From Nonlabens sp. MB-3u-79 (lineage in GTDB: Bacteria > Bacteroidota > Bacteroidia > Flavobacteriales > Flavobacteriaceae), in assembly GCF_002831625.1 (NCBI RefSeq), contig NZ_CP025116.1:2285501-2349500 (forward strand): a DNA stretch of 64,000 bases, written 5' to 3'. Positions 5,829 through 63,474 of the stretch are shown in pieces. Within the stretch, counting starts at the first letter, position 1. Each line of letters begins with the position of its first letter. Position numbers and translations under genes: made by a program. The notes below the pieces were generated by a model, which was not told where the DNA came from, searched no databases, and saw only the letters and a program-made list of their open reading frames with translations.

Positions 5829-5844
5829 CGCTTTCGCGAAAGCG
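5829..5844. repeat. Palindromic element, perfect copy
   Basis: A perfect CGCTTTCGCGAAAGCG whose symmetry extends three bases on each side. It sits 17 bases before the ATG of the YtxJ-like gene, probably inside its leader, and creates a spurious N-terminal extension of that reading frame. Confidence 0.9.
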
Positions 5845-5861
5845 AAACAAAAAAAAATACT

Positions 5862-6269
5862 ATGGGTTTTATGGATAAGCTGTTTAAAACACAGCAAAAT
5901 AGTGTAAATGAAGAACAAACCGGCATCCAATGGGAACCGCTAGAATCAGTGGATCAGTTAGATAATGTGATCAAAAACTCTACCTTAAAGCCAAAGGTTA
6001 TTTTTAAGCACAGCACAAGATGTGGTATTTCTAGAATGGTCCTAAGGCAGTTTGAAAACGGTTTTGAAAAAAACGATGACGAGGTGACCTTTTATTTTCT
6101 CGATTTATTAAACTATAAAGAGGTAAGTGCTGCCGTTGCCAGTAAGCTCAATGTGGTACACCAATCTCCACAAGTGATTATACTGTACAATAATGAGATT
6201 TTACACACAGAATCTCATCAAGGTATTGATATCAAAAAAGTTCAACAAATTGTGACTAATAAGAAATAG
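5862..6269 (+). CDS. ytxJ: YtxJ-like bacilliredoxin (bacillithiol system redox-active protein)
   Basis: A 135-residue thioredoxin-fold protein. The single active-site Cys is Cys54 in HSTRCGISRM, matching the (C)xIS signature of the YtxJ/BrxC family, which reduces bacillithiol-mixed disulfides in the cytoplasm. PQVIILYNNEI near the end is the expected cis-Pro segment. The open frame reaches back to a TTG at 5820, but those 14 codons are the palindromic element read through, so I start at ATG 5862. It ends 3 bases before the M48 peptidase gene and probably shares its transcript. Confidence 0.82.
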   Translation: MGFMDKLFKTQQNSVNEEQTGIQWEPLESVDQLDNVIKNSTLKPKVIFKHSTRCGISRMVLRQFENGFEKNDDEVTFYFLDLLNYKEVSAAVASKLNVVHQSPQVIILYNNEILHTESHQGIDIKKVQQIVTNKK

Positions 6270-6272
6270 ATC

Positions 6273-7097: not shown

Positions 7098-7120
7098 TCG
7101 ATTAAAAAACACATACTTTT

Positions 7121-8482: not shown

Positions 8483-8501
8483 CTAATTATAGATATAACA
8501 T

Positions 8502-8603: not shown

Positions 8604-10868
<2,265 letters not shown>

Positions 10869-14020: not shown

Positions 14021-14024
14021 TTCA

Positions 14025-14143: not shown

Positions 14144-14159
14144 CGCTTTCGCGAAAGCG
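14144..14159. repeat. Palindromic element, perfect copy
   Basis: A perfect CGCTTTCGCGAAAGCG in the probable lon leader, 67 bases before the lon start. Confidence 0.9.
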
Positions 14160-14225: not shown

Positions 14226-16697
14226 GTGGCGACTGAAAAAGATATGTTCAAACCAAAGAAATTTTCAATAGACAACTTGTCACTCCAAGAATTTGATCAA
14301 GATGCGGAGTTTATCCCTTTATTGAGCAGTGAGGACGAGGAAGAAATGAATAACGAAAACGTGCCAGAAACCTTATCCATATTGCCTTTGCGCAACATGG
14401 TGTTGTTTCCTGGTGTGGTAATTCCTATTACTGCAGGGCGAGATCGTTCCATTAAATTATTACAGGATGCCAATAAAAAAGGCATATCTATAGGGGTGGT
14501 AGCTCAAAAAGACGAAGATGTCGAAGAGCCTTCCATTGAAGACCTGCACACGACTGGAGTGGTAGCAAAAATTTTGAAGATCTTCAAAATGCCTGATGGT
14601 AATACGACTGTAATTATTCAAGGTAAAAAGCGTTTTGAAATGGGCGATATGGTTACAGAGCAACCCTTTATCACTGCTGTGGCTAAAGACCTTCCAGATG
14701 TACGGCCAGTAAAGGAAGACCCTGAATTCATTGCTATTATTGAAAAGATCAAGGAACTAGCTCTAGAAATCATCAAAGAAAGTCCCAATATTCCCAGTGA
14801 AGCATCTTTTGCTATTAAGAATATTGAGTCCGATTCTTTTTTAGTGAATTTTGTTTCTTCTAATATGAATCTGAAGGTAGAGGAAAAGCAAAAAGTACTT
14901 GAAATCAATGATTTAAAAGAGCGCGCACTGGAAACCTTGCGTTTTATGAATATTGAACGTCAAAAATTAGAGCTTAAAAACGATATACAGTCCAAAGTGC
15001 AGACTGATATCAATAAGCAACAAAGGGAATATTACTTGCATCAGCAAATGAAGACCATTCAAGATGAGTTGGGTGGCGGTGTTTCTTCTCATCAAGAAGT
15101 GGATGAGATGCGCCAGCGTGCTAAGAAAAAGAAATGGGATGATCATGTAAAGGAGCATTTTGAAAAGGAATTGGCTAAAATGCAACGTATGAATCCGCAA
15201 GTAGCAGAGTATTCCATACAGCGCAATTACTTGGACCTTATTCTCGATCTGCCATGGAATGAGTTTTCTAAGGACAACTTTGACTTGAAACGCGCCGTAA
15301 AAATTTTAGATCGGGATCATTACGGTCTAGACGAAGTAAAGAAACGCATCATTGAACACCTCGCTGTTTTGAAATTGCGTAATGATATGAAGTCACCTAT
15401 ACTTTGTTTATACGGACCTCCAGGAGTTGGTAAAACTTCTCTAGGTAAATCTATAGCAGAGGCGCTAGGACGAGAATACGTTCGTATTTCCTTAGGTGGA
15501 TTGAGAGATGAAGCTGAAATACGTGGTCACCGTAAAACCTATATAGGAGCGATGCCTGGACGTATTATACAAAGCATTAAAAAGGCCAAAACTTCAAATC
15601 CAGTTTTTGTACTGGATGAGATTGATAAATTGAGCAACTCCCATAATGGAGATCCTTCTAGTGCGATGCTGGAAGTATTAGATCCAGAGCAAAACAATTC
15701 CTTTTATGACAACTTCTTAGAAATGGGATTTGACTTAAGTAAAGTAATGTTTATTGCGACGAGTAATAGCTTAAATACCATACAACCTGCATTGCGTGAT
15801 CGTATGGAGATTATCAATGTGACGGGTTACACGATAGAAGAAAAGGTAGAAATAGGAAAAAAACATTTATTACCAAAGCAATTAAAGGAACATGGACTAG
15901 ACAAGTCCCATCTTAAGATTGCAATGCCACAGCTCGAAAAAATAGTGGAAGGTTACACACGTGAAAGTGGTGTGAGATCTCTTGACAAGCAAATTGCTAA
16001 AATGGTACGCTATGCAGCAAAAAGTATTGCTATGGAAGAAGATTACGATCTTAAAGTGACCAACGATACAGTTATTAAAGTATTGGGGTCCCCTAGAATG
16101 GAACGTGATAAGTATGAAAACAATGATGTTGCCGGTGTCGTTACAGGACTGGCATGGACTCAAGTAGGTGGGGATATTCTTTTTATTGAATCCATTCTTT
16201 CTAAAGGAAAAGGGACGCTTACCATAACAGGTAACCTCGGTAAAGTGATGAAGGAAAGCGCAACCATTGCGATGGAATACATCAAATCAAACTCCGAAGA
16301 ATTGGGAATAGACAGCTCGGTATTTGAAAAATACAACGTACATATTCATGTGCCTGAAGGAGCTACTCCTAAAGACGGTCCTAGTGCAGGGGTGAGCATG
16401 TTAACTTCATTAGTTTCCTTGTTTACACAACGTAAAGTGAAGAAAAGTCTAGCGATGACAGGAGAAATCACACTAAGAGGTAAGGTATTACCAGTAGGTG
16501 GTATCAAGGAAAAAATTCTTGCAGCAAAACGCGCTAGAATTAAAGAGATCCTGCTTTGTGAGCAAAACCGAAGAGATATTGAAGAAATCAAAGCCGATTA
16601 TATCAAAGGCTTGACCTTTCATTATGTAAGTGATATGAGCAATGTATTAGAACTAGCCCTTACTAAGCAAAAGGTAAAGAATGCAAAGAAATTGTAG
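14226..16697 (+). CDS. lon: ATP-dependent protease Lon
   Basis: An 823-residue LonA protease that degrades damaged and regulatory proteins in the cytoplasm. The N-terminal substrate-binding domain begins at [15 protein letters not shown] (about 54-68), a coiled-coil stretch follows, then the AAA+ domain with Walker A GPPGVGKT at 397-404 and Walker [11 protein letters not shown], and the protease domain with Ser720 in KDGPSAG and Lys763 in [10 protein letters not shown] as the catalytic pair. I give the GTG at 14226; ATG 14244 (MFKPKKFS) is an equally possible start. It is a single-gene unit with a terminator and a sigma-54-like element upstream. Confidence 0.97.
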
Positions 16698-17327: not shown

Positions 17328-19160
17328 TTATTGATAACCAGCAGCTTGTAAATTAAACAGCTGCTCATACAGCTGTGGAGCAGCCATGAGTTCTTCATGG
17401 GTTCCTATTTCAGCGACTTGACCATCTTCGAGTACTAAAATACGATCTGCCATACGTACTGTTGAGAATCGGTGTGAGATGATGATACTGGTTTTTCCTT
17501 TAGTAAGCCCAATAAAACGTTCAAAAACATCGTATTCGGCTTGTGCGTCTAGTGCACTGGTAGGCTCGTCGAGCACGACAACATCAGCATCCTTCATATA
17601 GGCACGAGCTAGGGCTACCTTTTGCCATTGTCCACCGCTCAATTCTTGACCTTTTGCAAAGCGTCTTCCTAACTGTTGATCGATACCGCCTTTCATTACG
17701 GCAACAACTTGATCTGCCAGGCTGCGTTGTGCGGCATCATTGATCATAGAATCATTAGAAAGCTCGTCTATATTTCCTACGGCTATGTTCTCGCGTAAGC
17801 TAAATTCATACTTAAAGAAGTCTTGGAAAATAACACCAAAACGTTTTCGGTATTCTTGCTTGTCAAATTGTGCAATGTTGACTCCATCGAGCAATATTTC
17901 TCCTTTTGTAGGTTCATAAAATCGCAAGATCAATTTGATCAATGTTGTTTTCCCTGCACCATTCTGTCCAACAAATGCTATTTTCTCTCCTGCTTTGATC
18001 TTAAAACTCACTCCTTTCAATACATCTGTGTCACTACCTGCATAACCAAAATGCACATTTTTAATTTCAAAGCCTTCTTGAATACGCTCGGGAAGTGGAG
18101 TAGTGGAGATTGCCTGATCTGTGACCTGTATATCTAAAAAGTCAAAGTAGTCTCTTAAATAAAGGGAACCTTCAGAAATGGCAGTAAATCTGGAAAAGAA
18201 CCCCTGAAGGTTATTTCGCAAACGGTTAAATGATCCAGATAAAAAGGTTAATTCTCCTATAGAAAGAGTCCCTGAAATTACCTTAAAAATAATAAAGATG
18301 TAAGCCCCATAATAAGACAAAATCCCTAAAATATTAAACAAGGAACCGTACAGACTTTGCTTTAAAGAAAGCTTTTTATTGATTTCATAGTAATCGCCAG
18401 ACAGCTTTTTAAATCGCGAGGCGATATAATCGGTCAGGCCAAAAAGCTTGACCTCTTTTGCTGTTTGATTATTGGCTCCTATAAAACGCAAATAATCCAG
18501 TTCACGACGCTCGGCGGTCCAGCTGCGAGCAACTGAATACCGGTGAGAACTAAATTTGGCTTCATTGATAAAGGACGGAATAATACTCAATACCAAAAGG
18601 ATGATCAATAAGGGTTCAAAATAGATCAAACCTGCGATTAAGGATCCTATGGAAATAACACTTTGAATCTGGCTTAAGGAAGCACTCATCAATCCTACGC
18701 GACCGCTGGTTTGCTGTCTGGCGCGTTCTAGTTTGTCATAAAAGTCAGGATCTTCTAATTGCTCTAAAGTCAGTTCGTTTGTTTTCCTAATGATTCTTTC
18801 TGAAGAGGCATTGGAATATAAATCACCTATCAATCCATCGGTAAGGTTGATCAATCTATTTAACAAATCGGCTAGGACAGCAACACTTAATTCGATCGCA
18901 ACATAAGTCCAGAGTTGGTTAAGGTCTTTTTCATCGAGTGAGATTTGTAAAATAACCTCATCAATGATCAGTTTTCCTACCCACAACAAGATAACAGGAC
19001 TCAGTGCAGTAAGGAGTCTAGCGATAAAGTTGGTCACAAAAAGCTTGGGACTGACACGCCAGATTTCTTTAAAGAATCTGGGTAAGGTTTTTAAGGCGCT
19101 GAAAGAGAATGTTTTTCCCTTTTTACTCTGTTCTTTTATAGATGCTGGAACTCTTGCCAC
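17328..19160 (-). CDS. ABC exporter, fused permease and ATPase
   Basis: A 610-residue half-transporter: about six membrane helices in residues 40-320, then an ATPase domain with Walker A GQNGAGKTT, signature LSGGQWQKVALARAY and Walker B VVVLDEPTSALD. Q-loop and H-loop (IIISHRFSTV) are intact. It probably works as a homodimer that exports a lipid, peptide or drug; substrate cannot be told. The start is GTG 19160, and a -7 box TACCTTTG sits 17 bases before it. It is a single-gene unit. Confidence 0.9.
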   Translation of the reverse strand: MARVPASIKEQSKKGKTFSFSALKTLPRFFKEIWRVSPKLFVTNFIARLLTALSPVILLWVGKLIIDEVILQISLDEKDLNQLWTYVAIELSVAVLADLLNRLINLTDGLIGDLYSNASSERIIRKTNELTLEQLEDPDFYDKLERARQQTSGRVGLMSASLSQIQSVISIGSLIAGLIYFEPLLIILLVLSIIPSFINEAKFSSHRYSVARSWTAERRELDYLRFIGANNQTAKEVKLFGLTDYIASRFKKLSGDYYEINKKLSLKQSLYGSLFNILGILSYYGAYIFIIFKVISGTLSIGELTFLSGSFNRLRNNLQGFFSRFTAISEGSLYLRDYFDFLDIQVTDQAISTTPLPERIQEGFEIKNVHFGYAGSDTDVLKGVSFKIKAGEKIAFVGQNGAGKTTLIKLILRFYEPTKGEILLDGVNIAQFDKQEYRKRFGVIFQDFFKYEFSLRENIAVGNIDELSNDSMINDAAQRSLADQVVAVMKGGIDQQLGRRFAKGQELSGGQWQKVALARAYMKDADVVVLDEPTSALDAQAEYDVFERFIGLTKGKTSIIISHRFSTVRMADRILVLEDGQVAEIGTHEELMAAPQLYEQLFNLQAAGYQ

Positions 19161-19213: not shown

Positions 19214-19229
19214 CGCTTTCGCGAAAGCG
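19214..19229. repeat. Palindromic element, perfect copy
   Basis: A perfect CGCTTTCGCGAAAGCG about 54 bases upstream of the ABC exporter start. Confidence 0.9.
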
Positions 19230-19377: not shown

Positions 19378-20283
19378 CTAAGGCAATTCTTTACCCGTCG
19401 AAGCAATATAAATTTGAAACCATTGCTCTAGTGACATTTTAATTTGGAAGGAGTCTACGGCTGTTTGAATGCGCTCGATCTTACCAGTTCCCAATATGGG
19501 AATGATGCCAGATGGATGCATCAATAGCCATTGGTACAAGATTTGTTCCGTTTGGGAAACCCCTAGTTCTTGAGCTACTATTTTTACGGCTTGAAGCAGT
19601 CTGGCTCCTTTCTCGGTTTTGGGAGTTAGAAGTTCACCACCAGCAAGAGGCGACCAGGCCATAGGACGTATTTTTTTGGAGATCAGGTAATCTAGGTTTT
19701 GGTTTTCAAAATGCTCCAAAGAGTAAGCAGAAATCTCGATTTGGTTCGTGACCAGTGGTTCCTCCACATAGGCTTGCAAGGACTCCAATTGCAATGGGAG
19801 AAAATTAGAAACCCCAAAATGAAGCACTTTACCGCTAGACTTTAATTGATCAAAAGCTTTTGCCACTTCTTCAGGATTAAAAAAAGGTGATGGTCGGTGC
19901 AATAACAACACATCTATATAATCGGTTTGCAGGTTTTTAAGGGATTCTTCTACTTGAGAAACAATGTAAGAGGCGCTGTAATCGTAATATTTCACTTTGC
20001 GCTCTGGAAATTTACTGGTGTTGAGTTTGATGCCACATTTAGTAACCAGCTGCATTTGGTCGCGCAATGCGCTTTCATTTTTCATCACTTTTCCAAAAGC
20101 CGCTTCACATTCATGATTTCCATAAATATCAGCATGATCAAAAGTGCTTACTCCAGTTTCTATAGACTCTTGAATAAAAGAAAGTAATTCTTGATCGGTT
20201 TTATTCCAGTCGAGCAAACGCCACATTCCCAGAACGATTCTTGATACTTCTAAATTTGCGGCAAGCTTTGTCTTTATCTCCAT
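19378..20283 (-). CDS. Aldo/keto reductase, YdhF-like
   Basis: A 301-residue NADPH-dependent oxidoreductase with a TIM-barrel fold. The catalytic Asp and Tyr are in DHADIYG (about 49-55), Lys in VTKCGIK, and His in LLLHRPSPF. The C-terminal IPILGTGKIERIQTA segment binds the NADP phosphate. The sequence pattern fits the YdhF group. An ATG at 20292 exists, but it lies within the -7 box TAACTTTG, so ATG 20283 (MEIKTKL) is preferred; the mRNA may have almost no leader. Substrate unknown. Confidence 0.88.
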   Translation of the reverse strand: MEIKTKLAANLEVSRIVLGMWRLLDWNKTDQELLSFIQESIETGVSTFDHADIYGNHECEAAFGKVMKNESALRDQMQLVTKCGIKLNTSKFPERKVKYYDYSASYIVSQVEESLKNLQTDYIDVLLLHRPSPFFNPEEVAKAFDQLKSSGKVLHFGVSNFLPLQLESLQAYVEEPLVTNQIEISAYSLEHFENQNLDYLISKKIRPMAWSPLAGGELLTPKTEKGARLLQAVKIVAQELGVSQTEQILYQWLLMHPSGIIPILGTGKIERIQTAVDSFQIKMSLEQWFQIYIASTGKELP

Positions 20284-20289
20284 AGAGGT

Positions 20290-20297
20290 CAAAGTTA
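20290..20297 (-). promoter_or_regulatory. -7 box of the aldo/keto reductase gene
   Basis: TAACTTTG on the minus strand matches TAnnTTTG and ends 6 bases before the ATG, which would make the transcript nearly leaderless. No clear -33 element. Confidence 0.45.
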
Positions 20298-20335: not shown

Positions 20336-21055
20336 CTACGGATTTGTGGACCAAAGAGAAGCAGCTTTAAGCATGGCTCTTCTAGGTAGTTTTAATCCTG
20401 CTACTACTAACTCGGCAAAATCTTCTGGTTGTAATACACTGTCTTCAGAATCTTTATCTGCTATTCCTAAATCTACCGCCATGTCTGTTGCAATGGTGCT
20501 AGGTGTAAGCGTACAAACTCTGATATTGTTTTTACGTACTTCTTTCATCAAGGATTCTGACATCCCGATTACTGCAAATTTAGAAGCCGAATAAGCCGAG
20601 GTACTGGCATTACCACTCAATCCTGCGGTAGAAGAAACGTTGATAATGTCACCGTGATTTTGATCGATCAAATAAGGCAGGACTTCTTTAGTGATATAAT
20701 ACATTCCCATAAGGTTGGTCTGTATGATCTGACTCCACCGGTCCACATCCATATCGTTGAGCGTACCAAAAGCCGCAATACCCGCATTGTTTACTAGAAT
20801 ATCTACACCACCCAAATCAGAAACTAAGGTTTTGATATGCTTTTGAACCTCTTTATAATTACCTAAATCAAACACGGCATAAGTGGCCTGGACACCTAGA
20901 TGTTCTAACTCGCTAACCGTTGCTTTTAAAGCTACTTCATCTCTACCAGTAATGGCTACGTTTATTCCCTCTTTAGCAAATGCTATTGCTGTAGCTTTTC
21001 CTAAACCACGGTTACCCCCTGTGATGATCGCATTTTTACCTTTTAAATCTTGCAT
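20336..21055 (-). CDS. Short-chain dehydrogenase/reductase, FabG-like
   Basis: A 239-residue NAD(P)-dependent reductase. The cofactor motif TGGNRGLG is at residues 13-20, NNAG follows, and the catalytic Ser, Tyr and Lys are in NVSSTAG and SAYSASK. It is of the 3-oxoacyl-ACP reductase type by sequence, but a stand-alone copy outside a fatty-acid cluster often has another ketone substrate. The open frame extends 61 codons upstream with low-complexity residues not seen in the family, so I start at ATG 21055 (MQDLKGKNAIITGG). Confidence 0.88.
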   Translation of the reverse strand: MQDLKGKNAIITGGNRGLGKATAIAFAKEGINVAITGRDEVALKATVSELEHLGVQATYAVFDLGNYKEVQKHIKTLVSDLGGVDILVNNAGIAAFGTLNDMDVDRWSQIIQTNLMGMYYITKEVLPYLIDQNHGDIINVSSTAGLSGNASTSAYSASKFAVIGMSESLMKEVRKNNIRVCTLTPSTIATDMAVDLGIADKDSEDSVLQPEDFAELVVAGLKLPRRAMLKAASLWSTNP

Positions 21056-21436
21056 GTATGTTGTATTAAAGTTGAAATGAATATGGATTATATGAAAGGA
21101 AAAGAATAAAAATAGTTCCTCTTTTGTCAAATAGCTTCGAGTAGTAAAATTAAAGTTTTTATATGGTTCTCCTGGGCGATGATGTCTTAATCCTTTGTGA
21201 AGAAACAGATAATACTTGTTTTTACAACTAGAGTACAAGTCTTAGTTGTTGGGTTCCGCTTTCGCGAAAGCTTAACTAATCAATGTTTTAAGGAATTAGC
21301 TTTATCTGATGTATTTAATTCATTAGCTATTTCTTTGAACCCTACTCTTTAAGGCTTTGCTCATTTGGTTCTAATTTATTAGGACTTATAAGAGGGCAAA
21401 TTTCGACATGTTTGGAAGAGTGGCATGAAATGAAAA
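21056..21436. other. Intergenic region, 381 bp
   Basis: No coding signal. It holds a near-perfect palindromic element (21257-21271) and an inverted repeat ACAACTA (21224-21230) / TAGTTGT (21243-21249). The SDR promoter should be at its left end, but no TAnnTTTG box was found. Confidence 0.5.
21257..21271. repeat. Palindromic element, last base differs
   Basis: CGCTTTCGCGAAAGC, followed by T in place of the final G. Confidence 0.8.
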
Positions 21437-21823
21437 TTAATTACTCTTCCAACTGGAAATAAATTCTAAAACATTTAGGGCAGGAGATGTTGCCAGACAG
21501 TCTTTACAGTTTTGGTAAGTCAGCAAACAGTCTACTAGATCTGTAAACATGTGGAAAAGGAGTCCGATTCCTAGAATGCGAAAAGGCTTGCGTAAAAACA
21601 ACAGTCCCACATAAAAGACCATAGCATAGTACGAATGTAAAGGGTGGAAATTAATACTGCATCTGTCAGCATCAAAAACCGGAGAGGTGAGAAGGTGGTC
21701 CAAATCTACCAGCATCGTTAGAAGTAAAAATAAGTAGGCTTTCTTCCATTCTTTATTAAAAAACACCAAAGCGATTCCCAATGGGAAAACAAGGTGTAAA
21801 AAATAATGGAGAAGTGTCTGCAT
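21437..21823 (-). CDS. DUF6122 family membrane protein
   Basis: A 128-residue protein with about four membrane helices. It carries LVDLDHLLTSPVFD, CSINFHPLHS and LLFHMFTDLVDC, a conserved set of Asp and His residues that I recognise from the DUF6122 family in Bacteroidota. The layout (DxDH and FHxxxDxxD) is reminiscent of membrane metal-dependent hydrolases, but no activity is known. No operon partner is evident. Confidence 0.75.
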   Translation of the reverse strand: MQTLLHYFLHLVFPLGIALVFFNKEWKKAYLFLLLTMLVDLDHLLTSPVFDADRCSINFHPLHSYYAMVFYVGLLFLRKPFRILGIGLLFHMFTDLVDCLLTYQNCKDCLATSPALNVLEFISSWKSN

Positions 21824-22043: not shown

Positions 22044-23951
22044 TTATTTTACTTCTTCAAAGTCTACATCTTCTACATCACTTGTAGAGTCTGAGTCGTC
22101 AGAAGTGTCAGCTCCAGCATCTGGGCCAGGTTGTCCACCTTGACCATCAGCTTGTGCTTTGTACATTTCTTCACTTGCAGCTGTCCAAACTTTATTTAGT
22201 TTTTCTAGTGCTGGATCGATTACTGCTAAGTCTTTAGACTCATAAGCAGCTTTCAATTCGTTAAGCGCTTCTTCGATAGGAGCTTTTTTGTCAGCAGGTA
22301 GCTTCTCGCCAAATTCTTCCAATTGTTGCTCTGTTTGGAAAATCATTTGATCTGCAGCGTTTAACTTATCTACAGTTTCTTTTGCTTTTTTATCAGCATC
22401 AGCATTAGCAGTAGCATCTTGCTTCATTTTCTCGATTTCTTCCTCGCTTAGTCCAGAAGAAGCTTCGATACGTACATCTTGTTTCTTTCCAGTCGCTTTA
22501 TCTTCAGCACTTACTTTTATGATACCGTTAGCATCAATATCAAAGGTTACCTCAATTTGTGGAGTACCTCTTCTTGATGGTGGAATATCTGATAAGTGGA
22601 ACCTACCGATGGTCTTGTTATCATTTGCCATAGCACGCTCTCCTTGGATCACATGAATCTCAACACTTGGTTGATTATCTGCAGCCGTAGAGAATACTTG
22701 AGACTTCTTAGTTGGGATGGTCGTGTTGGACTCAATTAATTTAGTCATCACACCACCCATAGTTTCAATACCTAAGGAAAGTGGAGTAACATCTAGTAAA
22801 AGAACGTCTTTTACATCACCTGTTAATACACCACCTTGAATAGCAGCACCTACAGCAACTACCTCATCAGGGTTTACTCCTTTTGATGGTTTCTTACCGA
22901 AGAATTTCTCAACAGCTTCCTGTACAGCAGGAATACGAGTAGATCCACCTACAAGAATAATCTCGTCAATGTCTCCAGTAGAAAGGCCAGCGTTTTTCAA
23001 TGCGGTCTGACATGGAGCGATAGTTCTTTTTACTAAGTCTGAGATCAATTTTTCAAAAGCAGACTTGGTCAATGTTTTTACAAGGTGCTTAGGTCCGCTA
23101 GCAGTAGCAGTTACATAAGGCAAGTTGATTTCAGTCTGTGCACTTGAAGAAAGCTCAATTTTAGCTTTTTCTGCAGCTTCTTTAAGACGCTGTAAAGCCA
23201 TTGGATCTTTTCTAAGATCGATGTCTTCAGCAGCCTTAAACTCATCAGCTAACCAGTCGATAATTTTTTGATCTACATCATCACCACCTAAGTGAGTATC
23301 ACCATCAGTTGAAAGTACTTCAAAAACTCCATCACCTAATTCTAGGATAGAAACATCATGTGTTCCACCACCAAAATCAAATACTACAATCTTCTGATCG
23401 GTATCTTTTTTATCTAATCCGTAAGCTAGTGCAGCAGCAGTAGGCTCATTGATTATACGTTCTACTTTAAGACCTGCGATCTCACCAGCTTCCTTAGTCG
23501 CTTGACGTTGAGAATCGTTAAAATAAGCCGGTACAGTAATTACTGCTCCAGTTACTTCGTATCCTAAATAATCTTCAGCGGTTTTCTTCATTTTTTGAAG
23601 AATCATTGCGCTTAATTCTTGTGGCGTGTAAAGACGGCCATCGATATCCACGCGTGGAGTATCGTTATCACCTTTTACTACTTTATAAGGTACACGTCCA
23701 GCTTCTTTTGTAGACTCGCTGTATTTGTTACCCATAAAACGCTTGATTGAAGCAACTGTTTTTGTTGGATTGGTTACCGCTTGTCTTTTTGCAGGATCAC
23801 CTACCTTAATCTCACCACCTTCTACAAAGGCGATAACTGATGGGGTAGTTCTTTTTCCTTCTGCGTTAGGTATTACTACAGGCTCGCTTCCTTCCATTAC
23901 AGAAACACAACTGTTAGTCGTACCTAAGTCTATTCCTATTATTTTACTCAT
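22044..23951 (-). CDS. dnaK: Molecular chaperone DnaK (Hsp70)
   Basis: A 635-residue Hsp70. The ATPase domain has [13 protein letters not shown] at residues 5-17, [14 protein letters not shown] and [13 protein letters not shown]. The substrate-binding domain and lid follow, and the tail ends in the acidic [11 protein letters not shown]. It binds exposed hydrophobic segments and works with DnaJ, GrpE and ClpB; dnaJ and grpE are not in this window. Upstream are a well-placed sigma-54-like element and several TGACA/TGTCA half-sites. No CIRCE element was seen. Confidence 0.98.
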
Positions 23952-24095: not shown

Positions 24096-24111
24096 CGCTT
24101 TCGCGAAAGCG
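24096..24111. repeat. Palindromic element, perfect copy
   Basis: A perfect CGCTTTCGCGAAAGCG upstream of the dnaK regulatory region. Confidence 0.9.
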
Positions 24112-28302: not shown

Positions 28303-28318
28303 CGCTTTCGCGAAAGCG
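28303..28318. repeat. Palindromic element, perfect copy
   Basis: A perfect CGCTTTCGCGAAAGCG between the YdbT-like gene and the OhrR operon. Confidence 0.9.
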
Positions 28319-36376: not shown

Positions 36377-36392
36377 CGCTTTCGCGAAAGCG
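36377..36392. repeat. Palindromic element, perfect copy
   Basis: A perfect CGCTTTCGCGAAAGCG in the divergent region between ybaB and the oligopeptidase gene. Confidence 0.9.
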
Positions 36393-43895: not shown

Positions 43896-46700
43896 TTACT
43901 TTAATTTTTCTGCGATGTATGGAGCAGTATAACAGTTTTTCACTTGAGCCACCTCTTCTGGAGTACCGCTAGCTACTAACTGACCACCAGCATCTCCACC
44001 TTCAGGTCCGAGATCAATAACGTAATCGGCACATTTTACCAAGTCCATATTGTGTTCTATAACAATCACTGAATGTCCTTTATCAATAAGTGCATTGAAA
44101 CTATCCAGTAATTTATTAATGTCATGAAAGTGCAACCCAGTAGTAGGCTCGTCAAATATGAATAAGGTCTTATCAGACGTTATTCCTTTTACTAAAAAGC
44201 TAGCGAGTTTGATACGTTGTGCTTCACCGCCTGAAAGGGTAGAAGAGCTTTGTCCTAATGTTACATACCCCAAACCTACGTCCTGAAGCGGTTGTAATTT
44301 TCTTGTAATTTTTGCTTCCTTGTTAGTGTCAAAAAATGCGATGGCATCATTGATGGTCAGGTTCAAAATATCATCGATGTTTTTATCGTGAAATTTCACT
44401 TCTAAGATTTCCTTTTTAAAACGTTTTCCATTACAAGTTTCACATTGCAAAGTCACATCTGCCATGAATTGCATCTCGATAGTTACCTCTCCATCTCCTT
44501 TACAAGTCTCACACCTACCTCCATCTACATTAAAAGAAAAGTGTTTGGGTTTATAGTTTCTAATTTTTGAGACTTTTTCATTAGCAAATAGGTTACGAAT
44601 GTCGTCATAAGCTTTGATGTAGGTCACAGGATTGGATCTTGAACTACGACCTATCGGATTTTGATCAATAAACTCTACTGTTTTTACATTTTCAAACTTT
44701 CCTTTTACTTCAGTAAACTGTCCTGCTTTTTTTCCATAGCCACCCAACTTTTTCAAGAGGGCAGGATATAAAATCTGCTTTACTAAAGTTGATTTTCCAC
44801 TACCTGAAACCCCGGTAACCATGGTCAGAACACCTAGAGGGAAACGCACGTCTATATTCTTAAGATTGTTCTGTCTTGCGCCTATAACGTCTATATAATA
44901 TTTGTGTGATCTGCGCTTTCGCGGAAGCGGAATTTCCATAGACCCATTCAGATACATAGCGGTAAGGCTGTCTGATTTCAAGATTTCAGCAAGTGTTCCG
45001 GCGGCAACCACTTCACCTCCATGAGTTCCTGCTTCTGGACCTATATCGATTATCTGATCAGCCGCTTGCATGATTTCTTCATCATGTTCTACAACGATCA
45101 CAGTATTTCCTAAATCGCGTAGATTTTTGAGTACTTTGATCAAACGCTTCGTATCTCGCGGATGCAATCCTATACTAGGCTCGTCTAGAATATACATACT
45201 ACCTACTAGGCTACTTCCCAGAGAGGTTGCTAGATTGATACGTTGCGACTCTCCACCAGAAAGACTGTTGGATTTGCGATTCAATGTCAAATAATCTAAG
45301 CCTACGTCAGATAAGAAAATGAGCCTGTTATTGATTTCAATAAGCAGTCTTTTAGCTATTTGTTGATCGTGTTCACTGAGTTTTAGATTTTCAAAAAAGA
45401 CCGTCAGTTCTTTGATAGGCAAGGTAACCAGATCTGTGATTGTGGTTTCGGCTATTTTAACATAGTTGGTTTCCTTTCTCAATCTTGCACCATTACAATT
45501 GCTGCACTTCGTTTTACCGCGGTACCTAGAAAGCATCACGCGATTTTGAATTTTATAAGCTTTCGCCTCGAGCTCATCAAAAAAGGAATGAATACCGTCA
45601 AAATATTTATTCCCGTCCCAAACCAGCTGTTTTTGCTTCACTGTTAATTCAAACCAAGGTCTGTGAATGGGAAAATCAAACTTGTCAGCGTTCTTTATAA
45701 GTTGGTTGTTATAATAAGACATGCTCTCGCCACGCCAAGGAAAAACCGCCTGTTCATAAACAGATAATGCGGTGTTAGGAATAACTAATTCGTCATCTAT
45801 ACCTATGACGTCACCGTAACCTTCACATTTAGGACAAGCACCATACGGATTGTTAAAACTAAATAAATGTGGATTAGGTTCTAAGAACTCTATGCCATCC
45901 AATTCAAATTTATTAGTAAACTCACGGACTTTACTGCCGTCCATGTGCTCTATAAAAGCGACACCTTTTCCTTCAAAGAAAGCCGTGTCAATGGCATCTG
46001 CTAGTCGGTTATAGAAATCTTCATCATCACGCACGATGATACGATCCACGACTATTTTCACTTCGTCTTTTTTAGAATAGGATAAATTTTCTTCATCCAT
46101 TCTATGAACGGTCTCGTTAATTTTGATACGAGTAAAGCCTTGTTGTTGCAGTACTTGTAATTGAGCCGCGATATCTCGCTTGCCTTTTACAATAAGCCTT
46201 GTGGTAAGCAATAACCTAGAACCTTCTTCTTGCTCTTTTACATAATTAACCACATCACTTACCGTATCTTTTTTTACTTCATCGCCAGAAATAGGCGAGT
46301 AGGTATGCCCTATACGTGCAAACAACAACTTGAGGTAGTCGTAAATCTCGGTGGTGGTTCCTACGGTTGATCGTGGATTTGTAGAATTCACCTTTTGTTC
46401 TATGGCTATTGCAGGCGCAATTCCTTTGATGTACTCTACTTTTGGTTTATTGAGACGTCCTAAAAACTGTCTGGCATAAGAAGAAAGACTCTCTACATAA
46501 CGACGTTGACCTTCAGCATAAAGTGTGTCAAAAGCAAGAGAAGACTTCCCACTTCCCGATAAACCGGTGATGACAACTAGTTTATTACGCGGGATGACAG
46601 CGTCTAGACTTTTGAGGTTGTGAAGTTCGGCACCTTTGATGAGGATATTCTTCTTAGGGCTCAATTGGTCTATATTGGCAAACAATTTTATTTCAGGCAT
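43896..46700 (-). CDS. uvrA: Excinuclease ABC subunit A
   Basis: 934 residues; the damage-recognition ATPase of nucleotide excision repair. Walker A of the first half is GLSGSGKS at 46-53; Cys pairs CPKC/CSNC and CETC/CETC form zinc fingers; two signatures LSGGE(S/A)QRI(N/K)LA and two Walker B segments are present. A palindromic element with one mismatch is read in frame as PLPRKRRS near residues 589-596, in the linker just before the second ABC half. The frame extends 11 codons upstream of ATG 46700; the promoter position favours 46700. Confidence 0.96.
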   Translation of the reverse strand: MPEIKLFANIDQLSPKKNILIKGAELHNLKSLDAVIPRNKLVVITGLSGSGKSSLAFDTLYAEGQRRYVESLSSYARQFLGRLNKPKVEYIKGIAPAIAIEQKVNSTNPRSTVGTTTEIYDYLKLLFARIGHTYSPISGDEVKKDTVSDVVNYVKEQEEGSRLLLTTRLIVKGKRDIAAQLQVLQQQGFTRIKINETVHRMDEENLSYSKKDEVKIVVDRIIVRDDEDFYNRLADAIDTAFFEGKGVAFIEHMDGSKVREFTNKFELDGIEFLEPNPHLFSFNNPYGACPKCEGYGDVIGIDDELVIPNTALSVYEQAVFPWRGESMSYYNNQLIKNADKFDFPIHRPWFELTVKQKQLVWDGNKYFDGIHSFFDELEAKAYKIQNRVMLSRYRGKTKCSNCNGARLRKETNYVKIAETTITDLVTLPIKELTVFFENLKLSEHDQQIAKRLLIEINNRLIFLSDVGLDYLTLNRKSNSLSGGESQRINLATSLGSSLVGSMYILDEPSIGLHPRDTKRLIKVLKNLRDLGNTVIVVEHDEEIMQAADQIIDIGPEAGTHGGEVVAAGTLAEILKSDSLTAMYLNGSMEIPLPRKRRSHKYYIDVIGARQNNLKNIDVRFPLGVLTMVTGVSGSGKSTLVKQILYPALLKKLGGYGKKAGQFTEVKGKFENVKTVEFIDQNPIGRSSRSNPVTYIKAYDDIRNLFANEKVSKIRNYKPKHFSFNVDGGRCETCKGDGEVTIEMQFMADVTLQCETCNGKRFKKEILEVKFHDKNIDDILNLTINDAIAFFDTNKEAKITRKLQPLQDVGLGYVTLGQSSSTLSGGEAQRIKLASFLVKGITSDKTLFIFDEPTTGLHFHDINKLLDSFNALIDKGHSVIVIEHNMDLVKCADYVIDLGPEGGDAGGQLVASGTPEEVAQVKNCYTAPYIAEKLK
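44914..44929. repeat. Palindromic element inside uvrA, one mismatch
   Basis: CGCTTTCGCGGAAGCG, read on the minus strand in the frame giving PLPRKR. It lies in the linker between the two ABC halves, where an insertion would be tolerated. Confidence 0.8.
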
Positions 46701-46705
46701 AAATA

Positions 46706-46734
46706 CAAATATAAGAGGGAGATCGCCCTTCAAA
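46706..46734 (-). promoter_or_regulatory. Promoter of uvrA, nearly leaderless
   Basis: On the minus strand TTTG (46734-46731), 17 bases, TATATTTG (46713-46706). The ATG begins 5 bases after the -7 box, so transcription would start one or two bases before it. Confidence 0.55.
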
Positions 46735-49428: not shown

Positions 49429-49878
49429 ATGACTTCATTAAAAGTAGGAGATAAGGCTCCAGATTTTTCAATTCTTAATCAAGAGGAACAAAGCGTTTCT
49501 TTGTCGGATTTTGCCGGTAAGAAGTTGGTTTTATTCTTTTACCCTAAAGCAAGTACACCGGGTTGTACCGCTGAGGCATGTAACTTAAGGGATAATGTAG
49601 ATCGTTTTCGCGCAAGCGGCTATGAGATCTTAGGCGCAAGTGCCGATAGTCCTAAACGACAAAAGAACTTTCAGACTAAATACGAACTTCCATACGATCT
49701 TCTTGCAGATGAAGATCATACCTTGTTAAATGCTTTTCAAGTTTGGGGTCCTAAAAAGTTTATGGGTAAAGAATACGACGGCATTCACCGTACGACTTTT
49801 GTGATTGATGAAAACGGCGTGATCACTGATGTGATCCAAAAGGTAAAAACCAAAGATCACGCAGCTCAAATTTTATAA
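49429..49878 (+). CDS. bcp: Thioredoxin-dependent peroxiredoxin (Bcp/PrxQ)
   Basis: 149 residues; reduces hydrogen and organic peroxides. The peroxidatic Cys46 and resolving Cys51 are in TPGCTAEACNLR, the standard atypical two-Cys pair of this class. A degenerate palindromic element (49603-49618, two mismatches) is read in frame as DRFRASG about residues 58-64, in place of a variable helix. The 3' end overlaps the convergent next gene by 6 bases. Confidence 0.94.
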   Translation: MTSLKVGDKAPDFSILNQEEQSVSLSDFAGKKLVLFFYPKASTPGCTAEACNLRDNVDRFRASGYEILGASADSPKRQKNFQTKYELPYDLLADEDHTLLNAFQVWGPKKFMGKEYDGIHRTTFVIDENGVITDVIQKVKTKDHAAQIL

Positions 49879-54066: not shown

Positions 54067-54741
54067 TTACTGGCCTAAAACTCGTTTCTCGAGCCACTCC
54101 TTCATGTCGTAGAAATTATCTCTAGAAATACCGTGTCCTATGGGATACTCTTTGAAGACATAATCGGCGTGGATTTTTTCCAGGAGCAGAGGGGCCTGTT
54201 TTGCCCATGCAAAAGGGATGACTTGATCTTGGGTTCCATGAGAAATGAAGTAGTTGGTTTTGATCTCGCTTTCGCGAAAGCGTGCTTCTAATCCATCTTT
54301 TCCTGCGATTAAATCTTCATTAATATAACCACTCATCGCGACTAGGTTACGCAATAATCCTGGATGAGAAAGGCTTAAGCCGTAAGCAAGAATAGCTCCT
54401 TGACTAAAACCTAGCACATTCATGTTATTAGGATCAATAGAGTAGGTAGCCTTCAATTCCTCTAAAAAACTAGTAATTTTTAACATACTTTCTCTAGCTT
54501 GATCGTCATCGCTAAACTTACCGCCAGAAGCATCAAAATTGATGGCATACCATGCAGCTCCTTGTGGAGGCATCTCGTAAGGGGCACGGGCTGAAACTAT
54601 AAAGATGTCTTCACTCAGCTCTGGCGCAAAGGAAAATAAGTCCTCTTCATTACTTCCATAACCGTGGAGCAGTAGGAGCAATGGAGCGTTTTCCTTGCGA
54701 GCAGGTCGCGTGATATGGGATAAAGTAAGTGATGTATGCAA
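54067..54741 (-). CDS. Phospholipase/carboxylesterase (alpha/beta-hydrolase)
   Basis: 224 residues. Nucleophile Ser113 in GFSQGAIL, His in YPIGHGISRD and oxyanion-hole residues in LLHGYGSNEED. A perfect palindromic element is read in frame as ARFRESEIK at about residues 153-161, in the loop before the strand NYFISHGTQDQVIP; other family members usually lack such a loop insert. It is last in the BatA-like/dihydroorotase-like/DUF4870/esterase operon, 5 bases after the DUF4870 gene. Confidence 0.88.
   Translation of the reverse strand: MHTSLTLSHITRPARKENAPLLLLLHGYGSNEEDLFSFAPELSEDIFIVSARAPYEMPPQGAAWYAINFDASGGKFSDDDQARESMLKITSFLEELKATYSIDPNNMNVLGFSQGAILAYGLSLSHPGLLRNLVAMSGYINEDLIAGKDGLEARFRESEIKTNYFISHGTQDQVIPFAWAKQAPLLLEKIHADYVFKEYPIGHGISRDNFYDMKEWLEKRVLGQ
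54267..54282. repeat. Palindromic element inside the esterase gene, perfect copy
   Basis: A perfect CGCTTTCGCGAAAGCG, translated RFRES in frame on the minus strand. Confidence 0.9.
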
Positions 54742-59546: not shown

Positions 59547-60314
59547 CTATAATTCTTTAAAAGCCCCTAATCCAAAAAGAGCAAAATCATATTTAATAGG
59601 ATCTTTAGGGTCAAAACTCCTAAGCACTTTGTCCAGTTCGGCAACGGCTTTGGCATCGTTTTGTTTGCGTTTAAGCAGTTTTAGTTTACGAGCGACATTC
59701 CCGGTGTGTACATCTAATGGTAGTGATAAAGCGCTCATAGGGATGGAGTTCCATATGCCAAAATCTACACCAGCATTGTCTTTTCTCACCATCCAGCGCA
59801 GGAACATGTTGATGCGTTTTGCACTACTATTTTTCATGGGGTCACTGACGTGTTTTTGGGTGCGTGGCAAGTGATCTACCTCAAAGAAGCTGGTTTTAAA
59901 TTGGGAGATGGCTTCTTGCAAATTTGCTTTTTCCTGATACGCTTTCGCGAAAGCGTGCTCTAAACCATCATGCTTCTTTTCTAAATGCTGCAAGGATCGC
60001 ATAAAGGTCTTGCAATCTTCACTGTTAAAAGTGCGGTGTACAAAACCATCAAATCTATCCAAGTCACTTTCTTCGTGGTTTCTTATAAAGTCTGCTGGAG
60101 ATTGATCTAGGAGCGTCATCAATTTATGAGCATTATTGATAATGGACTTGCGATTTCCCCAAGCAATGGTGGCTACAAGAAAGCTTGCTATTTCTATATC
60201 CTTTTTATCAGTAAAAAGATGCGGTATCTGAATAGGATCGTGAGGGATAAAATCTGGAGTGTTGTATTGCTCGACTTTTGCATCGAGAAATTCCTTAAGT
60301 TCTTTTCGGTTCAT
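59547..60314 (-). CDS. TIGR02757 family protein, function unknown
   Basis: 255 residues, predicted soluble and helical. FIPHDPIQIPHLFTDKKDIE, IATIAWGNRKSIINN-like ATIAWGNRKS, MNMFLRWMVRKDN-like RINMFLRWMVRKD and IPLDVHTGNVARKL are the conserved patches of the TIGR02757 family, which has a helix-hairpin-helix glycosylase-like look; activity is not known. A perfect palindromic element is read in frame as HAFAKAYQ around residues 119-125. It follows lolD by 29 bases. Confidence 0.82.
   Translation of the reverse strand: MNRKELKEFLDAKVEQYNTPDFIPHDPIQIPHLFTDKKDIEIASFLVATIAWGNRKSIINNAHKLMTLLDQSPADFIRNHEESDLDRFDGFVHRTFNSEDCKTFMRSLQHLEKKHDGLEHAFAKAYQEKANLQEAISQFKTSFFEVDHLPRTQKHVSDPMKNSSAKRINMFLRWMVRKDNAGVDFGIWNSIPMSALSLPLDVHTGNVARKLKLLKRKQNDAKAVAELDKVLRSFDPKDPIKYDFALFGLGAFKEL
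59940..59955. repeat. Palindromic element inside the TIGR02757 gene, perfect copy
   Basis: A perfect CGCTTTCGCGAAAGCG, translated AFAKA on the minus strand. Confidence 0.9.
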
Positions 60315-60343
60315 ATGAAACCTGTTTTATTTTAAACTAATGC

Positions 60344-61003
60344 TTACAGAAATTTACCATCACTCATTACCAGCTTGCGGTCTGCTAGGTCTGCGAGTTC
60401 TTCATTATGGGTAACAATAACAAAAGTCTGATTGAATTCTTTTCTCAATTGAAAAATCAATTCATGAAGGTCATGAGCTGTGGCGCTATCTAGGTTTCCT
60501 GTAGGTTCATCAGCAAAGATGACCTTGGGATTATTGATTAAAGCTCTTGCTACAGCAACGCGTTGTTGTTCACCACCAGAAAGCGCCCCAGGCTTGTGAT
60601 CCATACGATCAGATAATTTGAGATAGGAGAGGAGTTCTTTAGCTCGTTTATCAGCTACAGATTTATCAGTGTTTGCTATGTAAGCCGGGATGCAAACGTT
60701 TTCTAAAGCTGTAAACTCCGGTAATAATTGATGAAACTGGAATATAAAGCCAAGGGATTGATTTCTAAATTTATTAAGCTGTTTACCACTCAGTTTCATA
60801 ATATCGGTGCCATCTATTTCTAGGCTGCTGCCGGTTTTCATGTCTGGTTTTTCTAAGGTACCTAGAATGTGTAATAAGGTGGTCTTACCTGCGCCAGAAC
60901 TCCCTACAACACTAACTATTTCACCAGCTTTAATTTCTATATTTACGCCTTTAAGAACTTGTAAATCACCAAAACTTTTATAAATCTGTACTGCTTTAAT
61001 CAT
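60344..61003 (-). CDS. lolD: LolD-type ABC ATPase
   Basis: 219 residues; Walker [10 protein letters not shown] at about 35-43, signature [15 protein letters not shown] and Walker [13 protein letters not shown]. The LolD motif region [22 protein letters not shown] is present. It powers release of lipoproteins from the inner membrane or a MacB-like task; the permease partner is not adjacent. The gene lies 20 bases after the DUF5916 gene. Confidence 0.85.
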
Positions 61004-61023
61004 AATAACAAAGTAATGGGTTT

Positions 61024-63474
61024 TTAGGCTTTAAACCATCTTTTTGCATCATTAAAGTCAAGGAAATAAGTAACTCGTAAGGACAGATTGTGTCGAGATG
61101 GTTGAGTAAACAAGTCTTCCAGGCTGTCTTGAAAGGCTATATCTCCTTGATTATCAAAGTTAAATATGCTATTTCGGTATAGTAAAGTAGCTTCACTACC
61201 TGGGGCAAAACGCCATCGGTAGGAAAGGTCTAGATTCCAAACATTAAAATTAGCGTCTGGGTCAAAGTTGTTTGTCAAGGTGTAATCGGTTGGAATGGTA
61301 GTACCATTGGAATCGAGTTCTTTAAAATCTCGACTGAATGTTGCTCGAGACCAAAAATTTCTAAAAGACAAGCTCAGTGCTTGCTTGTTGTTAAAATTAT
61401 AGGTTCCAGACACTCTGTTTTCTACCGAGTGTGTATGACGTCTGCTTACTATAGGATTATTGTCTACGTCTTTATCCACATAGCTGATACGATTGTCATT
61501 TTTGTCCCATGACAGTCGATATACAAGCAAGAATTTATCTGAGAACCTATACCTAGGACTTATATTGAAATTATAACTTTCTTCTAAATCGTTAAATCGT
61601 TTTAACCAGCTCATTCTGATGTCGGTTGCAAATTTCTTACGATAATCTGTCGAGAAAGAACCTCCCGAATAATAGGCAGGTTCGTATCTCACGACTTGTC
61701 CTGTTTGACGAGCTTCAAATTGATTTAAATTTCTGGTAAAGAATTTGAAATCGCCACCGAATGCCAGACGTTCTCTAGTAGTGAAGGATGGGTTGATATT
61801 GTACTCACTATCTGTGTGTAAATCTGGATCGATCTGCCTTCTATGTCTTATTCTAAAGTCTACATCGTACCTGTTGAAAATACCAACAGGAGTAAATTGA
61901 TTGTAACTCAAGTCAGCGGCAAAGGTTTGTGTATTGTTTTGAAAATTACGTCCTAAATCGTTAGGATTCCAATTTTTATCCCGGTAGAAGTGTGCTAGAC
62001 TAGGTCTCCATCTGCCAGTGGTTTTACGCCATCTCGCTTCACTGGCCACACCAGTTTCAGTTCCCCTAGGAGTAAAACGATTACTCATTTTTAATTCTGC
62101 TCTGTAATTATTGGAAGCGTTTTTATCATTGTGATCGAGTACTAATGCATTAACTACCGCATCTGTAAAGCTTCCATTTCTCATCGTACTTGCTGTAGAT
62201 AATGCAATAGAACTGTTTTTACTGAATTGCTGGTCCAGAATAAACATGTTGTAATTCGTAAAGGGTTCTGTAATTTCTGTACGGCGCTCGTTATTGAGTA
62301 AGTTTTCTATAGTAGCTTCTGTCTTTCCGGTTATGGCATTTAAAAAACCTATGCCTAACCTATCTTTTGTTCTTCCCGTAATTTTCACAGCATTGAGCAA
62401 TTGTGCGCTATTGGGGTTATCTATAACGTCTTCATTTTCTAATAGAGCAAGGTTTCCAAAACCACTAGGTGTCTGTCCTATTCTACGTGAGAAGAAGATT
62501 CCTCCTTTATTAAACAAATCTATTCCTTCATTAAAAAAGGCTCTGTTTTCTCCAAAGGTTTGTTCAAAGGGCCCTAAATTAAGAACAACTTGATCAAAAG
62601 CCACTTGACCAAAATCTGGAATCAAAGTCGCGTCAAGAGTGAAGGCATCGTTGATCCCGTATTTAACATCCATTCCGGCACTGTACTTCGTTGTACTTAC
62701 TCCATTAAAATTATCATTAACTATGGTGGTGTACGGATAAAGATTTAATCGTAATGGCGGGTTGATCTTTTCTACGCCTGTCATCAAAGCATCGTATTGT
62801 GTGGCTATTCCTTTGGTAATGTCTATGAAGTCATAAGAGTACTCTTCATTCAAAGCACGTATTCTTCTAAAAATTTGAAAGCTCCAGTCTTGTTTTTCTA
62901 TTTCTGGAAATCTCAATGTTCTATAAGGAATTTTCATTTCCACAAACCACCCAAGTTTATTAATGCTCGTCTCTGATTTAAAAACAACATTATAACTAAA
63001 GTCATCTCGATTACCTTCAGTAATGGCATCACCTAACGCGTTGGCACTAGTGGCAAAAAACTTCGTTTGATTGATTTGGTTGTTATAAGTATTTAAATAA
63101 AACCCAAACACATCTGCTTGAGCATTTATTTCATCTCTTTGAGAAAATTGTCTCGGTATACTTTCTGGATTGTTGTCATAAAGAAATGCGGCAACATAAA
63201 GAGCATCATCATCATAAGCAATTTTAAACTCTGTTTTATGGGTGTCTCTTTCTTTTTGACCATTGGTAGGCTGGACCATCACAAAATTACCTCCTGTGGG
63301 AATAGCATCCCAAAACTTTTCAAATGGCTCCCCATCGATATCAGGTGCCGTACTTACTCGAGTAGCTTTATACACTTTTCTCTTGATATCAAGAGTGTCT
63401 TGAGCTATTTGTGATTCCGCTTTCGCGAAAGCGAGAACTAAAACCAACCAGGTGAAAATGAATTTAAATTGCAT
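61024..63474 (-). CDS. DUF5916 protein with CBM9-like N-terminal domain, probable outer-membrane beta-barrel
   Basis: 816 residues. A signal peptide at 1-21 includes FTWLVLVLAFAKAESQ, in which AFAKA is the translated palindromic element. Residues about 40-230 are a CBM9-like domain (STAPDIDGEPFEKFWDAIPT, FKIAYDDDALYVAAFLYD). The rest is DUF5916, with many amphipathic strands and a C-terminal aromatic residue, as in outer-membrane barrels. The frame starts 13 codons earlier, but ATG 63474 puts the signal peptide at the N-terminus. Forms an operon with lolD and TIGR02757. Confidence 0.87.
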   Translation of the reverse strand: MQFKFIFTWLVLVLAFAKAESQIAQDTLDIKRKVYKATRVSTAPDIDGEPFEKFWDAIPTGGNFVMVQPTNGQKERDTHKTEFKIAYDDDALYVAAFLYDNNPESIPRQFSQRDEINAQADVFGFYLNTYNNQINQTKFFATSANALGDAITEGNRDDFSYNVVFKSETSINKLGWFVEMKIPYRTLRFPEIEKQDWSFQIFRRIRALNEEYSYDFIDITKGIATQYDALMTGVEKINPPLRLNLYPYTTIVNDNFNGVSTTKYSAGMDVKYGINDAFTLDATLIPDFGQVAFDQVVLNLGPFEQTFGENRAFFNEGIDLFNKGGIFFSRRIGQTPSGFGNLALLENEDVIDNPNSAQLLNAVKITGRTKDRLGIGFLNAITGKTEATIENLLNNERRTEITEPFTNYNMFILDQQFSKNSSIALSTASTMRNGSFTDAVVNALVLDHNDKNASNNYRAELKMSNRFTPRGTETGVASEARWRKTTGRWRPSLAHFYRDKNWNPNDLGRNFQNNTQTFAADLSYNQFTPVGIFNRYDVDFRIRHRRQIDPDLHTDSEYNINPSFTTRERLAFGGDFKFFTRNLNQFEARQTGQVVRYEPAYYSGGSFSTDYRKKFATDIRMSWLKRFNDLEESYNFNISPRYRFSDKFLLVYRLSWDKNDNRISYVDKDVDNNPIVSRRHTHSVENRVSGTYNFNNKQALSLSFRNFWSRATFSRDFKELDSNGTTIPTDYTLTNNFDPDANFNVWNLDLSYRWRFAPGSEATLLYRNSIFNFDNQGDIAFQDSLEDLFTQPSRHNLSLRVTYFLDFNDAKRWFKA
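63418..63433. repeat. Palindromic element inside a signal-peptide-coding region, perfect copy
   Basis: A perfect CGCTTTCGCGAAAGCG translated AFAKA; the A-x-A form lies at or close to the expected signal peptidase I cleavage site. Confidence 0.9.

Follow-up and report, generated by a model that had tools for sequence, protein, structure and literature searches.

A palindrome dispersed through Nonlabens genomes and its possible role as a DNA uptake sequence

The genome of Nonlabens sp. MB-3u-79, a single contig of 3,184,776 bp (NZ_CP025116.1), carries 427 perfect copies of one 16 bp palindrome and no copy of the reversed control word. Nine of these copies lie in the stretch of 64,000 nucleotides (positions 2,285,501 to 2,349,500) that is referred to here as the window. 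We tentatively propose that the palindrome is a putative DNA uptake (self-recognition) sequence that has been spread by biased uptake and recombination, a reading that we would place close to an even chance. An exact word, even spacing, conservation at permissive positions and rarity in acquired DNA are described as marks of uptake sequences (PMC2397512; PMC7811141), and it is because the palindrome shares these marks that uptake is the most likely of the explanations considered. This reading is also found to cover more of the data than those of a preliminary description of the window, in which the palindrome was taken to be either an architectural or protein-binding site of the chromosome or a mobile palindromic repeat.

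Under this proposal a receptor of the competence machinery, symmetric and probably a dimer, would prefer DNA that bears the site; the DNA taken up would recombine with the chromosome and site-bearing alleles would be copied more often than siteless ones (molecular drive). One site per fragment taken up would suffice and a second site nearby would gain nothing, which would account for the avoidance of near neighbours described below. The sites themselves are made by point substitution in tolerant places, namely intergenic DNA, the ends of signal peptides and tolerant protein segments.

The word, its core and its flanks

The genome was sampled as 60 evenly spaced stretches of 20 kb (1.2 Mb, of which approximately 6.5 kb was masked; hereafter the sample), 73% of which our own gene caller marks as coding, probably too little. 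The sample holds 158 perfect copies of the 16-mer against 0.00016 expected from a fourth-order Markov model. As in uptake sequences, an exact short word is thus present far above genome-wide expectation, and the excess that had been noted in the window is borne out across the genome. A further 74 copies have one mismatch, 14 have two and 14 have three. In 57 of the 74 one-mismatch copies only the outermost base deviates, and the conserved core was therefore taken to be the 14-mer GCTTTCGCGAAAGC, which is perfectly palindromic and occurs 220 times in the sample. Masked letters aside, every other palindromic 14-mer is present at most twice in the sample, and a search of 80 named Flavobacteriaceae loci for repeated palindromes of at least 12 bp returned three words, each present twice in one locus, and nothing of comparable density. 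Neither the 16-mer nor the 14-mer was found in any paper of the library searched. Two further words over-represented in the sample, GGTGATTAGG and CTCGAACTCG, are tandem-repeat-like.

The weak symmetry of the flanks that had been described from the window copies was confirmed. On the 5' side, read on either strand, there is a T at -3 (0.86 of intergenic copies) with weaker preferences for T at -6, -9 and -12, a pyrimidine at -1 and -2, where G is avoided, and a scarcity of C from -4 to -18 that is seen in intergenic and genic copies alike. The flank in genome G196 is likewise poor in C but favours other letters, and in G182 (GC 0.45) the C-poor flank is weak. The flank letters show no pairing across the site beyond base composition. 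Among the 14 copies with two mismatches three are symmetric, all of them at the outermost pair. An RNA hairpin or intrinsic terminator was rejected on this lack of pairing, on the lack of compensating core changes beyond the outermost pair and on the lack of any Rfam match in the window. Of the two possibilities in the preliminary description, sequence-specific recognition of double-stranded DNA fits these observations, since the letters, including the central bases, are kept in genes and the flanks are unpaired beyond composition; the mobile repeat found no support.

Spacing along the chromosome

Gaps between the first 100 copies have a mean of 7.3 kb and a coefficient of variation (CV) of 0.69, below that of all 5,000 exponential simulations, and none is shorter than 1 kb where 12.7 would be expected. 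For cores in the sample, 2 of 161 gaps are shorter than 1 kb (32 expected) and 15 are shorter than 2 kb (59 expected); in 45 loci of relatives the corresponding counts are 1 of 137 (29 expected) and 7 of 137 (53 expected). The 20 kb stretches vary less in site number than a random scatter would (variance/mean 0.59, P 0.005), the density being approximately one site per 5-7 kb. Cores decayed by one or two letters (n=26 and 15) lie a median of 2.8 kb from a perfect copy against 1.5 kb for random positions, from which words with three mismatches (median 1.9 kb, n=38) hardly differ. Exclusion is not strict, as pairs 259 and 489 bp apart occur in this genome and one pair 121 bp apart in G196. This relatively even spread, which is less even in G001, is shared with uptake sequences, as is the conservation at permissive positions described below. 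When the sites were mapped relative to the origin, as the preliminary description had proposed, there was no clear trend with distance (rho -0.24, P 0.07); site number increases with the GC of the stretch (rho 0.41, P 0.001).

Such regularity might also come from a lattice that organises the chromosome, in which a dimeric nucleoid protein would be anchored at intervals of 5-7 kb (supercoiling domains, condensin or replication-linked anchoring), with selection keeping approximately one site per interval. The perfect two-fold symmetry with its extended flanks suits a dimer, and the even spacing, the few near neighbours and the lack of a clear trend with origin distance are all in keeping with this idea. 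Known sites of nucleoid and partition proteins tolerate mismatches, however, while those described here are almost all exact; furthermore, the site-poor region of the chromosome coincides with a cassette array rather than with the terminus as such, and two related Nonlabens phages lack sites (both discussed below). On balance we consider a lattice unlikely. A slightly less probable variant has a dedicated dimeric protein of this genus and two others that needs one exact 14 bp palindrome every 5-7 kb and hardly ever two within 1-2 kb, with selection rewriting host proteins and signal peptides. We know of no nucleoid system with such exact and evenly spaced sites within genes, and an anchor site, if true, would expose a previously unrecognised chromosome-spacing system.

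Identity with parS was rejected, as the TGTTTCACGTGAAACA-type word differs, the palindrome is spread over the chromosome and separate parS-like sites are present. A scan of the sample for parS, Noc and matS words with up to two mismatches, which required one of three 4-base anchors and can miss matches, returned two sites resembling parS and, for the other words, three matches that look like chance. The two parS-like sites (L058:7579 and 9472; one perfect, one with a single mismatch) lie at approximately 0.96 Mb, near the skew-inferred origin.

An exact word at about one site per 5-7 kb that is rare in acquired DNA could alternatively be an orientation-free hotspot resembling Chi, which has a similar density in E. 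coli. A helicase-nuclease of the RecBCD/AddAB type would then read the palindrome on either strand and one site would serve breaks from both sides. Known Chi words are, however, 5-8 bp long and non-palindromic, and neither long flanks nor the avoidance of near neighbours would be expected; we regard this explanation as improbable. Highly improbable is a word of the HIP1 kind, maintained by orphan DNA methyltransferases that act on inner sub-words. HIP1 of cyanobacteria is likewise a very frequent palindrome, with a debated function (PMC4390886), but 14 bp is long for a methyltransferase word, and the flank pattern and near-neighbour avoidance would be left unexplained.

Sites within genes and their origin

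Predicted genes contain 109 of the 220 cores in the sample, and within genes the DNA word dictates the protein sequence. The peptide AFAKA occurs 73 times with the codons of the site and 5 times without them (0.33 expected from composition), RFRES 19 times with and never without (0.08 expected), and LSRK 16 times with and 10 times without (4.2 expected). In 29 cases AFAKA lies no further than residue 40 of the protein, and by eye a dozen or more of these resemble signal peptides; the AxA motif of exported proteins thus seems to be provided by the DNA word. The palindrome at 63418 in the window encodes an AFAKA that ends a signal-peptide-like N-terminus, and the same may hold for as many as 29 genes of the sample.

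Sites persist in orthologues at 55-98% protein identity. At 59940 in the window, within a TIGR02757 gene, all 16 letters are present in 17 of 21 loci of the same genus and the core in 19 of 21, at 73-98% protein identity (G013, a further genome of the genus, gave no match for this gene), and the codon preceding the core ends in C in 20 of the 21, although it encodes H, S, N, F or Y (the third letter is A in G007). The siteless orthologue of this gene in G196 aligns without a gap at the site, as do the siteless orthologues of L254:977 in G017 and G182; two other alignments with G182 are gapped at the site. Conversely, L272:9730 is a site private to G182 where 20 relatives show an ungapped, ordinary stretch, and other sites are private to one species, for example L258:11765 in 1 of 17. 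The gapless siteless orthologues argue that sites were written by substitution, and the alignments indicate that they arise in this way and persist for long periods in genes. Many site-bearing genes outside the window have too few orthologues to judge.

This evidence bears on a mobile element of the REP/MITE type inserted by a transposase, with which several hundred identical copies would be compatible, as would the location of half of them beyond predicted genes. The gap that such an insertion should leave in siteless orthologues is not seen at L254:977 (against G017 and G182) or L272:9730 (against 20 genomes), an inserted 16-mer would shift the reading frame, and the copies keep apart rather than cluster. 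The mobile palindromic repeat of the preliminary description was rejected on the gapless orthologues and mutual avoidance, and we give it almost no credence.

Comparison of the window with the sister species G010 was possible over 600 bp for four of ten cores, of which two are exact, one has a single change and one, upstream of dnaK, is interrupted by an insertion that holds another palindrome. This second dispersed palindrome, CCTGCCGGCAGG, has 24 copies in G010, 13 in G182, 17 in G196 and 0-2 in the other five genomes searched; in G010 (L233:11108) it looks inserted and partly clustered.

Copies in the window

All nine perfect copies and all three one-mismatch copies of the preliminary description were recovered. 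Its four weaker copies have two (49603), three (8100 and 47804) and four mismatches (39762, counted by eye as the scan covered up to three). With up to three mismatches there are 15 matches in the window against a mean of 0.10 in 100 dinucleotide-preserving shuffles, which agrees with the earlier view that chance does not account for them. The copies are as follows.

2908..2923, one mismatch in the core; between an acyl-CoA ligase gene (1044-2822, minus strand) and clpB (3040-5733, minus strand)
5829..5844, perfect copy with 22 bp of perfect symmetry; between clpB (minus strand) and a ytxJ-like gene (plus strand)
14144..14159, perfect copy; upstream of lon (14226-16697, plus strand)
19214..19229, perfect copy; between an ABC transporter gene (17328-19160, minus strand) and an aldo/keto reductase gene (19378-20292, minus strand)
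21257..21272, 14 bp core intact, outermost base changed; between a short-chain dehydrogenase gene (20336-21238, minus strand) and an open reading frame (ORF; 21437-21823, minus strand)
24096..24111, perfect copy; between the divergent dnaK (22044-23951, minus strand) and serine dehydratase (24543-25991, plus strand) genes; interrupted in G010
28303..28318, perfect copy; between a bacterial-PH-domain gene (26660-28237, plus strand) and a MarR-type regulator gene (28464-28922, plus strand)
36377..36392, perfect copy; upstream of an oligopeptidase B-like gene (36478-38529, plus strand)
44914..44929, one mismatch in the core; inside uvrA (43896-46733, minus strand)
49603..49618, two mismatches; inside an ORF (49429-49878, plus strand); 13 of the 17 orthologues aligned keep the core intact
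54267..54282, perfect copy; inside an esterase-like gene (54067-54741, minus strand); encodes RFRES; 18 of the 21 orthologues aligned have the core
59940..59955, perfect copy; inside the TIGR02757 gene (59547-60314, minus strand); encodes AFAKA; core in 19 of 21 loci of the genus
63418..63433, perfect copy; in the signal-peptide-like N-terminal end of a gene (61024-63513, minus strand); encodes AFAKA

The statement that most copies are intergenic holds for the window, where our gene caller places six of the nine perfect copies between genes (those at 54267, 59940 and 63418 being genic), but not genome-wide, where about half of the cores are in predicted genes. The copy at 5829 falls within a mechanical ORF (5820-6269, TTG start); since the YtxJ match begins only at residue 40, the copy is probably upstream of the true start. 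The weak copies at 8100 and 47804 may be chance matches or remnants, because three-mismatch words sit hardly farther from perfect copies than random positions do.

Distribution among genomes

The proteorhodopsin encoded by the genome matches PDB chains 9jou and 9jov (473 bits over 241 residues), which we take to be of a Nonlabens protein and which would fit the assignment to this genus. All 23 genomes of the genus that were searched carry the palindrome, in 180-737 perfect copies. At least one copy is present in 54 of 395 genomes of the family (203 genera searched), and more than 13 copies are confined to four genomes of the same genus, one of the genus g161 (153 copies) and one of the genus g175 (630 copies). 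Across the phylum 10 of 296 genomes have copies and only that of MB-3u-79 has more than two. No perfect copy was found in the 80 named Flavobacteriaceae loci, which lie around DnaK. The distribution of the palindrome is patchy. In a tree of DnaK the carriers g161 and g175 lie outside the genus, adjoining Ulvibacter-like records. The family and phylum searches show no sign of ordinary sequence that is alignable across distant genera, which had been named earlier as a possible objection.

In nine of ten stretches taken from low-copy genomes the sites sit in recurring peptides at recurring spacings. Protein families were searched for ten proteins from three of the ten stretches; L394 and L402 encode RND pumps, outer-membrane efflux proteins, a HlyD-type protein, P-type ATPases and a multicopper oxidase, and the tenth stretch (L403) has content other than heavy-metal genes. 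Because of these gene families and the recurring peptides, most stray copies seem to have arrived with heavy-metal islands, and the presence of the palindrome in heavy-metal resistance islands (L394-L402) of several non-carrier genera is a sign of transfer from a carrier. Whether it serves in uptake or as an anchor, the word marks DNA that has left the genus or its fellow carriers, as in these islands.

Acquired DNA and phages

The region of the chromosome poorest in sites lies close to the skew-inferred terminus, at 2.60-2.69 Mb; four 20 kb stretches of it have 0, 0, 1 and 1 cores against a mean of 3.7. It contains many repeats of 120-220 bp between genes that run mostly one way; in six relatives matches to it are short and scattered, and the same repeats recur there. 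The tyrosine recombinase at 2,572 kb has a match to the integron integrase model that falls short of the cut-off, and each of the 14 control genomes also has genes with such matches. From these features and a likeness of the repeats to attC, judged by eye, the segment from 2.572 to 2.69 Mb (L089, L444, L090, L445) is read as an integron-like cassette array. Five cores are present in a control stretch at 2,756 kb, which is largely collinear in G010. Avoidance of the terminus of the kind seen in nucleoid occlusion was rejected on these two observations. Rarity in recently acquired DNA, as in uptake sequences, is thus seen in one array of one genome, a narrow basis, and the heavy-metal islands of other genera do carry sites.

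The Nonlabens phages P12024S and L, which we take to be lytic, have no copy within two mismatches where host density would give approximately 6; as they are related they count as about one case. In IMG/VR there are at least 133 core matches, in 120 stretches listed. Among the matches listed, five of the six flank letters are present in 16 of the 52 from stretches with a GC below 0.44 and in none of the 81 from stretches at or above that value. Of the low-GC contigs, L359 encodes portal and major head proteins, L308 a tape measure protein and L325 a head protease; L317 encodes a transposase, and its contig bears three cores, each with four of the six flank letters. Two of the contigs have sites at mirrored positions and are probably one phage. 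Uptake words are expected in temperate but not in lytic phages; here flanked sites are found in some phage contigs, which may or may not be temperate, and not in the two related phages.

Weighing the uptake sequence

Uptake sequences are known from Neisseriaceae and Pasteurellaceae (PMC7811141), with dialects that differ between genera (PMC3630211), and they also gather in temperate phages of Pasteurellaceae (PMC6776037). Riemerella columbina, placed by the authors in Flavobacteriaceae, prefers its own DNA for uptake, and the k-mer table of that paper lists A-rich words and not this palindrome (PMC7965970). R. anatipestifer is described as requiring proteins without assigned function for its transformation, and the DUF5689 family as essential for transformation in Riemerella (PMC8459023). 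DUF5689 was rejected as the specificity factor here, as neither its presence nor its tree follows the palindrome; it is the sole receptor candidate family that was tested.

Several points weigh against uptake. All 45 genomes tested have DUF5689, whether or not they carry the palindrome, and the carriers are not grouped together in its tree of 35 genomes. Known uptake sequences are 9-12 bp long, non-palindromic and approximately 5 to 10 times denser. In the library of papers searched, none links Nonlabens with natural transformation. Gaps in G001 are nearer to random (CV 0.87), although still only 2 of 93 are shorter than 1 kb where 16 are expected. One stretch (L046) has no perfect copy and a single core yet contains ordinary genes, and site poverty is therefore not only a matter of foreign DNA. 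Lastly, some phage contigs carry flanked sites, which would fit an uptake drive only if the phages have long been resident.

Should the palindrome prove to be an uptake sequence, it would be an independent further case, palindromic and in Bacteroidota; beyond the two families named above we know of no other with uptake sequences. It would also provide a specific ligand with which to fish for the poorly known transformation machinery of Flavobacteriaceae, and a test of whether a bias in uptake is by itself enough to spread a word through a genome and impose it on the encoded proteins.

Comparison with known systems

The DNA uptake sequence (DUS) of Neisseriaceae and the uptake signal sequence (USS) of Pasteurellaceae are, like this palindrome, exact words with hundreds to thousands of copies that lie partly within genes at tolerant places. 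They are similarly conserved, relatively even in spread, rare in acquired DNA and found in some phages, and the USS shares the AT-rich flanks. The present word differs in being a palindrome with a 14 bp core, in being 5 to 10 times sparser, in its strong avoidance of neighbours within 1-2 kb and in belonging to another phylum.

The parS sites of ParB and the sites of Noc are also palindromes of 14-16 bp with TTTC and GAAA arms, but have another spacer and word and far fewer copies, and the genome has two parS-like sites of its own. Chi is an exact word at similar density, but one that is short, directional and non-palindromic. HIP1 of cyanobacteria (GCGATCGC) is likewise a palindrome heavily over-represented across the genome (PMC4390886). 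It is 8 bp long against the 14 bp of the present core, which is further set apart by its long flanks and by the avoidance of near neighbours.

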